Part shown: piece by piece, positions 45,719-49,083 of the stretch
How positions within the stretch are numbered: position 1 is the first letter of the stretch
Layout of the letters: the number at the start of each line of letters is the position of its first letter
Assembly: GCA_001770015.1 (NCBI GenBank)
Contig: MEQB01000015.1
Location: 1 to 61,564, forward strand
From: Bdellovibrionales bacterium RIFOXYC1_FULL_37_79
GTDB taxonomy: Bacteria > Bdellovibrionota > Bacteriovoracia > Bacteriovoracales > Bacteriovoracaceae
Direction of reading: 5' to 3'
DNA: 61,564 nt
Translations under genes and position numbers: made by a program
Notes under the pieces: generated by a model
Databases searched by the model: none
The model's input: only the letters and a program-made list of their open reading frames with translations
What the model was told of the DNA's origin: nothing

Positions 45719-45744
45719 GGTGACAAAAATTATTTTTTGTCACC
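45719..45744 (+). terminator. Terminator-like hairpin after the slipin gene
   Basis: A 10-bp stem (GGTGACAAAA / TTTTGTCACC) with a six-base loop, followed by TTTT on the plus strand. It overlaps the 3' end of the convergent prepilin-S74 gene, so it may serve both directions. Confidence 0.65.
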
Positions 45745-46905
45745 TTTTGCGGTTGAGGCAAGCGCACGTTCTATTTTTTTAAGTTCCCGTTCATTTTCTC
45801 GAATCTGTTTTTCCTGTCGCTTGATGACTTCGAGCATGGGGGCAATTAAATTCGCATATTGAACGGCTAACCCATTACCGACCTGATCAACCAGTTCTGG
45901 ATACTGCTTTTGCACTTCCTGGGCCACCAGACCCAAACTTTTTTCCCCGGTATTTTTCCAATTAAAACTGACTCCTCGCAAGCTAAGAATTCTATTGGCC
46001 TCTTTTTCGCTGATCACTTTTATATTCTTTTTTTCCTTTTGGTCTGAGACATGGTTATATTTCGTAGCGGACACCTCATCGGCAGCCGCCGATCCGTTGA
46101 CAAATAATTTGGTAACATTATTAATAACTCCATTTTCCACGATGACCGGAACTCCTCCCGAATGATTAAAAGTTAACTTTCCAAAAATATCCACGGCGCC
46201 ATCGGCTTTTATAGCGTAGGGTCTCGGTCCAGGTGTTCCGCCCATCGCCGTTGAATTTGCGGCAGTAAAAGTTTTTATACTGATACTTTTACATAGATCA
46301 TTATCGGAATAATCCAGTATCCCCCCCAGGGCGCTACAAAGATCTTCCAAATTATTTGAATTTTCAGAAACACACCTTAGCAGTGTAGTTCCGGCCCCGT
46401 CAAAGATGAATTTTATAGGGAGTATCCTAGTCGTCTCAATCTCCTTGGCGCTACCGACACCTTTCTTTTCAAATGTAACAATCAAACTGGTTCCTCTTAA
46501 ATTTCCTTGGATAAGCTTTACATTGCCAAGCTTCAAATCCTTAATCTTAACTTTACCAACCCCTGATTCGTTCTCCAAGGAACCATATTCCTTACTTTTT
46601 ACCAGTACCGGCGTCACAGTTCCGCTCAACTCCTTTCTTACAATTTGGCTTAAAGATGCATTAGAGGTATTGTGATCCTTGAACGTTTCATAGCAACTAT
46701 CACGATCTCTAAGGACAAACATCAAGTCATACATAATATTGTCCGCTTGAAAATTTTTTGAAGTATCTCTCGTTCTTTCCGTTTGAAAATCGATTATCTT
46801 CATTCCCCCCAGAGCAATCACGCCCAAAAGCCCTGCCGCCACAATCACCTCTGCCAAGGAAAAGCCATGATTTTTAATCAAATTATTTTTATTTTTTGTA
46901 TTCAT
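45730..46905 (-). CDS. Prepilin-like protein with C-terminal S74 intramolecular chaperone domain (copy 1)
   Basis: 391 residues. N-terminus is a type IV prepilin signal: basic leader ending NHG, then FSLAEVIVAAGLLG with Glu at +5, cleaved and methylated by PilD-type peptidase. A middle region (about 30-280) includes CSALGGILDY and PYAIKADGAV segments shared with the neighbouring gene. The C-terminal 105 residues match peptidase S74/endosialidase chaperone: Ser287-Asp in SDQKEKKNI (autocleavage Ser and Lys), LRGVSFNW, LGLVAQEVQKQYPELV, then a coiled coil (KRQEKQIRENERELKK). This domain trimerises phage tail spikes and cleaves itself off. It is 22 bases from the second fusion gene. Confidence 0.88.
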   Translation of the reverse strand: MNTKNKNNLIKNHGFSLAEVIVAAGLLGVIALGGMKIIDFQTERTRDTSKNFQADNIMYDLMFVLRDRDSCYETFKDHNTSNASLSQIVRKELSGTVTPVLVKSKEYGSLENESGVGKVKIKDLKLGNVKLIQGNLRGTSLIVTFEKKGVGSAKEIETTRILPIKFIFDGAGTTLLRCVSENSNNLEDLCSALGGILDYSDNDLCKSISIKTFTAANSTAMGGTPGPRPYAIKADGAVDIFGKLTFNHSGGVPVIVENGVINNVTKLFVNGSAAADEVSATKYNHVSDQKEKKNIKVISEKEANRILSLRGVSFNWKNTGEKSLGLVAQEVQKQYPELVDQVGNGLAVQYANLIAPMLEVIKRQEKQIRENERELKKIERALASTAKGDKK

Positions 46906-46927
46906 AAAACATACCCACCCAATACTT

Positions 46928-48904
46928 TTACGGTTGATGCTTAAGCTTCCTGTTTATATCCTTAATCCTCGATTTTTGACTTGCGATTACTCTTTCATTT
47001 TCTTTGATCATCTCTATGAGCGGAGCTATTAATTTTTCCGTTTCCAGGGTTTTCACATTCAATTTTTCATTACGATGAGTAATTTCCGGAAAATATTTTT
47101 CCACCTCTTGAACCACCACCCCTAGATCATGCTGATTATTTCTTTTCCAATCAAAACTCACCCCGGTTATATTCAGCACTTTTTTTGCATCCCCTAGACT
47201 TAGGTCCTTTACGTTATCCTTGAGTATGAGATCCGAATCGTAGAACATTTTTCGAATCGTCATATGATCATAGATATCCAAATCACCTTTGACCTTACAG
47301 ACGGTGGGGTAATTCTTGCAAAAAGAATCCCCCACATAAAGATCCCCTGCTTTCAATCGGAAGATATCGTGTCGATTATCTCCCGTGACTTCGCAATAAT
47401 TAAGCCCGCTACTCCCGCTTTTATCGCAAGGAATATAAGTATCGCCGTTTCCACCACAAACATCCTGGCAGTTAAAAGCATCTGTTTCAGTGCTACCAAA
47501 ACTGCACTTGCGATAGCCACCATCCACGACGGCATCACCGTTACAATCCCTGGTCTCCAAACTCTGAGGAGGAATAAAATATCCAGGAGCACCTGGTCCT
47601 CCTTCCACGACCGGTCCACTGCAACCAGTATAACTGTCTGACTTGATTTTTACCCATCCCGAAGCATCGGGAGCTCCTAATACCGTACAGCTACCTCTAC
47701 TTTGGGCGTTTTGCCGACAAGTACATTGTCGCACTTTTTTATCTTTTATAAATTGAATTTCAATTTCTCTTTTGACCCGGTCATATTCCGGATCGCCAGT
47801 AACACTGTTAACCCAAAACTCCAGAAAATCGGTTACCCGTTTCGAATCGTGGATCGCATCTCCTGACATGGTTCCCAGCACCACACAATCTTCCACTCTC
47901 ACTCCTCCGGGAGCAGTAGCTTTGGTTTTACATGACACTGGTGATTTGAATTCGTTAATCGTTCCTTGACAATAAGCACTCCCCGTTGGACATAATTGGG
48001 TCGCACCGGCCGTTATTCTAGATGGATATAAGGCGTTATTACTGACCACGACTTCAAGGGCAGAAGCATCACTTTCAGCTTTTATTGCATGGGGTGAGAT
48101 GCTTCTCTTTCTGATCGCTATGCTTTTACATTCCAAGTTATTTCCCTGCTTATATAATTCACCACCTAGGGTATTACATGCCACACTGTCAACACTCCCC
48201 TGATACCCACAATCATGAATAAAAACCCGCTTTCCGTTTGGACTGTATCTAAGTGTAAGGGGTAGCACAAATTTTTGTTCAATCACCTGCTTGGCCTTTT
48301 TATCTTTTATTTTATTTTCCCCTACTACATTTTCACCTACCGTATACTTTATACTCATGTTAACAGTGGCATTTTGGGCCTTGACCACCCTCTCGATACC
48401 CCCGGACATGATTTTCATTTCCATATCCCTTAATAGCTTGAGATTGCTAAGCCCAATATAACTGACTCGAAACTGCCCATCACCCTCACCGTAACGGTAA
48501 TAAAGACTGGCACCGACCTCGGTATCTTTTTTAGGTTGCGCATAACTAGTCCTGAACATTTTCAACAGAGGGACTGAGCTTTTAGAATAAACCATGCTGT
48601 TAGTGGAACTAACCGTCGTCGTTCCAAGATAAAGATCATTGGAAAAAATTTCCGAATCCGGCTTGCTTAGCCACGGAGTCACCTCCAGCCCCCCCCAATT
48701 GGCCACACAGTGTTTGGGCTGGGTCATTGCTTTGAGTACCAGAAATTTCATCTCACTGACCGCAAAATCCTGCTCTAATTTTTTACTGCTTTTCTGCAAA
48801 TTAGAAACCAAGGTCATGACACCCAAACCGACAATCGCACTTACCCCCAGCGCAACGGTCAATTCAACCAGATTAAATCCATTTTTATTTTTCATGATAT
48901 ACAT
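46928..48904 (-). CDS. Prepilin-like protein with C-terminal S74 intramolecular chaperone domain (copy 2)
   Basis: Start at 48904 behind GGGGTGATA. The short leader MYIMKNKNG precedes FNLVELTVALGVSAIVGLGVM, a prepilin N-terminus with Glu at +5. Middle region (about 30-545) has CNTLGGELYK and PHAIKAES, as in copy 1, plus a Cys-rich part (RDCNGDAVVDGGYRKC, NCQDVCGGNGD) that suggests disulfides outside the cell. The C-terminal ~100 residues carry SDLILKDNV (Ser at about 557 and Lys match the S74 cleavage site), ITGVSFDW, LGVVVQEVEKYFPEI and a terminal coiled coil. First gene of a two-gene operon with copy 1. Confidence 0.88.
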   Translation of the reverse strand: MYIMKNKNGFNLVELTVALGVSAIVGLGVMTLVSNLQKSSKKLEQDFAVSEMKFLVLKAMTQPKHCVANWGGLEVTPWLSKPDSEIFSNDLYLGTTTVSSTNSMVYSKSSVPLLKMFRTSYAQPKKDTEVGASLYYRYGEGDGQFRVSYIGLSNLKLLRDMEMKIMSGGIERVVKAQNATVNMSIKYTVGENVVGENKIKDKKAKQVIEQKFVLPLTLRYSPNGKRVFIHDCGYQGSVDSVACNTLGGELYKQGNNLECKSIAIRKRSISPHAIKAESDASALEVVVSNNALYPSRITAGATQLCPTGSAYCQGTINEFKSPVSCKTKATAPGGVRVEDCVVLGTMSGDAIHDSKRVTDFLEFWVNSVTGDPEYDRVKREIEIQFIKDKKVRQCTCRQNAQSRGSCTVLGAPDASGWVKIKSDSYTGCSGPVVEGGPGAPGYFIPPQSLETRDCNGDAVVDGGYRKCSFGSTETDAFNCQDVCGGNGDTYIPCDKSGSSGLNYCEVTGDNRHDIFRLKAGDLYVGDSFCKNYPTVCKVKGDLDIYDHMTIRKMFYDSDLILKDNVKDLSLGDAKKVLNITGVSFDWKRNNQHDLGVVVQEVEKYFPEITHRNEKLNVKTLETEKLIAPLIEMIKENERVIASQKSRIKDINRKLKHQP

Positions 48905-49053
48905 TATCACCCCAAAACCAAAACACATCAAATCTGCATTTTTTTCCCTTTAATCTTAATAAGATAGCATTTGACTAAGACAATCCTTTAGCCAACTTAA
49001 TAAGTCAGTTTCCCGATCAAATTTCACCTATTAAAAAATCCGAGCACGCCAAA

Positions 49054-49083
49054 AAATAGACCCAGCATTCGCTGGGTCTATTT
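49054..49083 (-). terminator. Rho-independent terminator of the flagellin gene
   Basis: A perfect 13-bp stem (AAATAGACCCAGC / GCTGGGTCTATTT) with a four-base loop, about 40 bases past the flagellin stop. On the minus strand the second arm runs into a T-run. Confidence 0.9.

Follow-up and report, generated by a model that had tools for sequence, protein, structure and literature searches.

Two adjacent minus-strand genes in the window (the whole stretch analyzed, 61,564 nucleotides, which is the entire contig C15 of a 4.36-Mb draft genome that is 96% complete) each join a type IV prepilin N terminus to a C-terminal S74 domain. The organism is related to Bdellovibrio, a predatory bacterium. We consider it probable that both products are modular minor prepilins in which the S74 domain trimerizes the distal part of the chain and is then removed by its own cleavage, so that an adhesive tip of three chains remains. 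The two-gene fusion architecture proposed in the initial annotation was borne out by the open reading frames, by Pfam, and by the sequence motifs, and every motif quoted there was present (G^FSLAE and G^FNLVE, SDQKEKKN and SDLILKDN, GVSFNW and GVSFDW, and QEVQKQYPE and QEVEKYFPE in copies 1 and 2, respectively). The features of the locus, all on the minus strand, are as follows.

49051 to 49078, minus strand: terminator-like hairpin and T run that separate copy 2 from the flagellin gene (GACCCAGC-GAAT-GCTGGGTC-TATTTTTT, found by eye).
46928 to 48895, minus strand: copy 2, prepilin-S74 fusion of 655 amino acids from the ATG at 48895 (or 48904); open reading frame, S74 match (E = 2.6e-8), start favored by the sister genome.
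48101 to 48895, minus strand: copy 2 leader (residues 1 to 6; MKNKNG^FNLVE), hydrophobic helix, and a pilin-like module that reaches about residue 265; N_methyl match in the genome scan.
47297 to 47992, minus strand: copy 2 Cys-rich middle, residues 302 to 533, holding 16 of 20 Cys.
47081 to 47236, minus strand: copy 2 S74 domain (PF13884 match); predicted cut before Ser554, with Lys559 as partner.
46931 to 47080, minus strand: copy 2 C-terminal coiled coil, with heptads patterned like those of copy 1 (heptad listing).
46906 to 46927, minus strand: spacer of 22 bases between copy 2 and copy 1.
45730 to 46905, minus strand: copy 1, prepilin-S74 fusion of 391 amino acids; open reading frame, matches to S74 (E = 1.2e-12) and N_methyl (E = 5.1e-4), TIGR02532 over the cutoff.
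46864 to 46905, minus strand: copy 1 leader peptide, residues 1 to 14, with Gly at −1 (MNTKNKNNLIKNHG^FSLAE).
46336 to 46863, minus strand: hydrophobic helix of copy 1 with the pilin-like module, residues 15 to 190 (class III signal peptide read from the sequence; AF2 model weak).
46048 to 46335, minus strand: distal part of copy 1 up to the predicted cut, residues 191 to 286, a presumed trimeric beta fiber directly N-terminal to S74 (model pLDDT below 35).
45871 to 46047, minus strand: copy 1 S74 domain (Pfam PF13884), residues 287 to 345; predicted cut before Ser287, with Lys292 as partner.
45733 to 45870, minus strand: C-terminal coiled coil of copy 1, whose heptads have Ile/Leu at position a and Gln/Asn at d in the middle layers (AF2 helix 346 to 385; heptad listing).

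The longest open reading frame of copy 2 spans 46928 to 48931 on the minus strand and likely starts at one of the two ATGs; 48895 is favored because in the sister genome (Bdellovibrionales MAG RIFOXYA1_FULL_36_14) the matching position has a stop immediately upstream. Since only the short spacer separates copy 2 from copy 1, the two are probably carried on one transcript. Copy 2 is preceded on its own strand by a flagellin gene, which, with SPFH/NfeD-like genes, makes up the immediate neighborhood; no pilus genes adjoin the pair, which lies outside any T4b pilus operon. The hairpin upstream of copy 2 was present in the sister genome too and was not among the sites listed by a consensus scan, in which promoter and terminator counts across the region were at chance level.

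Both the tandem and the gene order (flagellin, copy 2, copy 1, SPFH/NfeD-like genes) were kept in the sister genome, where the orthologues were 73% (copy 1) and 66% (copy 2) identical. Between the two genomes dN was low and dS near saturation (dN/dS of 0.08 over the whole of copy 2), and both genes are under purifying selection. Together with recurrence in many genera, this conservation argues that the prepilin-S74 arrangement is not a product of chance. Identity was highest in the pilin helix (83% and 93% in copies 1 and 2) and the S74 domain (88% and 74%) and was 55 to 74% over most of the middle, which is the distribution expected of a binding head. The Cys-rich middle of copy 2, noted in the initial annotation, is real: 18 of the 20 Cys of the protein were kept in the sister genome, and a search of 125 genomes of the class found no relatives of this region beyond the genus. 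We dropped the idea that the locus carries the fusion as phage-derived cargo, given the kept gene order and the ordinary chromosomal neighbors.

Both copies carry a class III signal peptide by sequence (Gly at −1, Glu at +5, and a hydrophobic helix), and these features are conserved in relatives. Glu at +5 is the residue used in pilin packing. Profile scores for the prepilin part were borderline, especially for copy 2: with a Pfam N_methyl cutoff of 21.2 bits, the copies scored 19.9 and 16.2 bits when each protein was scanned alone and 23.7 and 21.3 bits, both over the cutoff, in the whole-genome scan, and with NCBIfam TIGR02532 (cutoff of 16.3) copy 1 was over (17.2) and copy 2 under (14.5). 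The top three PDB matches of the AF2 model of copy 1, itself weak, were minor pilins (9a1f, 7o5y, and 7ba2; Z of 4.3 to 4.5), one of them the modular pilin PilB of S. sanguinis; the matches are weak and come from the pilin part, the only usable portion of the models. The genome encodes two A24 prepilin peptidases over the cutoff, one of them on contig C21 along with PilB- and PilT-like genes, as well as PilB/PilT-like and GspE-like ATPases, several further ATPases, and other prepilins; its filament gene sets are T4a-like on C21 and T2SS-like on C35.

Assignment of the C termini to S74, which the initial annotation had left to a profile search, was confirmed with 48.3 bits for copy 1 and 34.5 bits for copy 2 against a Pfam cutoff of 22, and a genome-wide search returned these two S74 domains only. 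They are about 36% identical to each other, and both retain the Ser and Lys of SDxxxK. Ile/Leu at a combined with Gln/Asn in the middle d positions is a heptad pattern seen in trimeric coiled coils of autotransporter adhesins. AF2 models from two-row alignments left most of both proteins unresolved (mean pLDDT of 41 and 28 for copies 1 and 2), and phmmer with copy 1 alone returned only chance matches in the PDB. A profile built from 15 fusions matched phage tail fibers (4.7e-21) and the S74 protein MYRF (2.1e-9) with its C terminus (6f45, 8jov, and 7dc3 were matched by S74), and its N terminus matched the pilins TcpA (4.1e-5) and geopilin (2.7e-4).

From the known families, we infer processing by prepilin peptidase, trimerization, and self-cleavage; position at the tip, an adhesive role, the filament used, and a homotrimer of its own for each copy are points that we infer only. 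With the N terminus seated in the inner membrane, prepilin peptidase would remove the leader after Gly14 in copy 1 and after Gly6 in copy 2. On the periplasmic side, S74 and the coiled coil would gather three chains and nucleate folding of the preceding fiber-like stretch, after which the trimer would cut each of its chains N-terminal to the Ser of SDxxxK and shed a chaperone of about 105 residues. The product would be a set of three mature pilins held together distally by a trimeric head; it could initiate or cap a type IV filament, with the head (about 96 residues in copy 1, to which copy 2 adds its Cys-rich domain) exposed as a surface-binding tip. Such a trimer would need to pass a secretin, for which TcpB is a precedent. 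The initial annotation had offered either a trimeric fiber tip or a freed ligand-binding part; the trimeric tip is the best-supported reading, and release of a ligand-binding part is not predicted, because S74 would remove itself (the last ~105 residues) and the distal fiber would stay on the pilin, as in Bd3182, a MAT fiber of Bdellovibrio in which the chaperone itself is removed and self-cleavage is lost in a Ser-to-Ala mutant (PMC10769870).

MAT fibers of Bdellovibrio bacteriovorus such as Bd3182, from the same phylum, likewise carry a C-terminal S74 behind a distal fiber and keep SDxxxK (PMC10769870), but they have a signal peptide and a conserved beta domain of about 130 residues, whereas the window proteins start as prepilins, are shorter, and do not qualify as MAT proteins. 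TcpB and CofB, which are homotrimeric tip minor pilins, resemble our reading in that an N-terminal pilin part bears a distal trimerizing beta part at the proposed pilus tip (PMC9565799); they differ in lacking S74 and self-cleavage and in being encoded in a T4b pilus operon. Of this system, the fusion profile reached TcpA only, and that through its N-terminal part. The Kil Tad-pilus tips of predatory Myxococcus, with a three-helix tip of minor pilins bearing added domains, are similar to what is proposed here, but KilL/M/N form a heterotrimer without S74 (PMC12075869). Phage tail fibers and spikes and animal MYRF match the profile by S74 but have no pilin part and act in a virion or as a transcription factor.

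The window pair is not unique, as we had considered at one stage, since tandems recur in other genomes. An S74 search of 59 relatives returned S74 proteins in 25, many of which begin as prepilins when their reading frames are read, and searches of the class and phylum added fusions from further families (G300, G181, G196, G206, G201, G204, and G308), bringing the number to at least 35 fusions, drawn from 27 genomes in five of the phylum's families, a count that covers chosen candidate loci whose open reading frames were read and is no census. In a site-by-site table of 26 fusions (copy 2 included; 21 genomes, 13 genera), Gly(−1), the S74 Ser, and the S74 Lys were present in every one and Glu(+5) in 25, the exception being Gln in L005; the S74 site of L113 reads SDKSLK. 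The +5 residue was looser in the further-family fusions (Gln, Asp, or Gly in some) and degenerate in G308. A 993-residue fusion in G023 (L083, 3625 to 6606, minus strand) consists of a prepilin start, six YadA_head repeats, and S74, and other fusions contain GIGTxxP fiber motifs. To our knowledge, the YadA head fold occurs solely as a trimer.

In some relatives S74 follows an ordinary signal peptide or a lipoprotein-like signal, and in a quick S74 tree, which rests on few columns and has many weakly supported forks, the pilin-borne domains were clustered without forming one clade (10 parsimony changes, at least 2 of them forced by firm branches, against a shuffled mean of 20), so that the N-terminal delivery part has seemingly been swapped more than once with that of signal-peptide fibers. 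Such exchange of N termini, and the distance of the window pair from pilus genes, would suit an alternative in which the prepilin N terminus is merely an anchor and export signal for a short S74 envelope fiber that, like MAT fibers or S74 lipoproteins, does not join a filament. We regard this as unlikely, in view of the near-invariant class III leader of the tabulated fusions and of the pilin-like module that continues beyond the helix.

Tandem genes raise a second alternative, namely, that neighboring copies coassemble into one mixed S74 trimer, comparable to GspI/J/K or Kil L/M/N, which have no S74. Besides the retained order of the window pair, it draws on a tandem of two genes in G300, the second with Gln at +5 (GSSLIQ), and on three genes in G181 (L150, 5219 to 7144, 7152 to 9083, and 9085 to 11001, plus strand; 641, 643, and 638 amino acids), the second and third of which are 49% and 43% identical to the first. 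The window copies, however, are very unequal in size and share little of their S74 sequence, many relatives have a single fusion, and the characterized S74 proteins are homotrimers, which makes a heterotrimer quite improbable. That S74 would instead cut other proteins at the pilus tip, as its family name and the "peptidase activity" in the text of a modular pilin survey (PMC8179133) might suggest, is very hard to credit, because the S74 domains studied to date cut their own chain only and then leave and because the fusions share the C-terminal layout, with a coiled coil behind S74, expected of the self-processing kind.

The survey in question, by Raynaud et al. in 2021, placed the architecture IPR012902-IPR030392 among the 15 commonest modular pilins under the label "peptidase" (PMC8179133). 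It has the same two modules in the same order as the window pair, but as a domain list with no characterized member, whereas the window pair is a tandem with an intact catalytic pair and an extra Cys-rich head. As far as we have seen, the prepilin-S74 fusion has thus been cataloged before and seemingly not studied; we found no published study of any such fusion in a search that lay mostly outside subscription journals. Added here are the invariant catalytic pair across fusions, the evidence for trimers, and the recurrent tandems, and we argue that in these fusions S74 acts as a chaperone that removes itself, not as a protease of the tip. This would change the label on a common architecture from "peptidase" to "trimerizing chaperone" and would connect pilus tips with phage tail spikes and the MAT fibers of predatory bacteria. 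Type IV pili bind via their tips, little is known of how modular tips fold, and S74 offers a simple, testable rule in which the self-cut reports trimerization. More tentatively, the self-cut might serve as a folding checkpoint, such that only a correct trimer sheds its chaperone and primes the filament; the quality control of phage tail spikes would then have become part of type IV pili on many occasions within the Bdellovibrio phylum, and tandems would provide alternative or mixed tips suited to different targets.

The surroundings of the fusions varied. In several genera (L075, L078, L079, and L081), pilin-S74 genes adjoin radical SAM-like, epimerase-like, or polysaccharide-type genes, which the window pair does not. 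In two other families (L149, 11199 to 14381, plus strand; L153, 9583 to 12816, minus strand), they adjoin a gene for a secreted protein of about 1,060 to 1,077 amino acids with a C-terminal Hint-type self-processing domain, close to which lies a cytochrome c-like open reading frame in L149; L153 has a similar-looking one. By analogy with TcpF and TcpB, the Hint-type protein may possibly be a cargo or partner of the tip. Large prepilins of 739 to 804 amino acids (L085, 2399 to 4618, minus strand; L086, 5811 to 8225, plus strand; L089, 2736 to 5015, plus strand; L083, 8222 to 10549, plus strand) have an N terminus related to that of copy 1, and the remainder contained neither S74 nor any other Pfam domain above the cutoff.

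A separate class of small S74 proteins (145 to 170 amino acids) has no signal peptide (L085, 5123 to 5617, minus strand; L086, 3414 to 3851, minus strand; L087, 1818 to 2285, minus strand; L088, 3740 to 4249, plus strand; L089, 14389 to 14844, minus strand; L090, 3392 to 3841, minus strand; L091, 3171 to 3617, plus strand). Its members form one group in the S74 tree and share the N terminus YxFGGIKEFNLEEIExEVLNDSVYLDVFAG directly before the predicted self-cut, which is followed by SDxxFK; a literature search for small S74 proteins with this conserved N terminus returned no paper. The predicted cut would free a peptide of about 35 to 60 residues, which might be a peptide substrate with the trimeric chaperone as its carrier. 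Radical SAM/SPASM, glycosyltransferase, and polysaccharide-type genes surround several of these genes.
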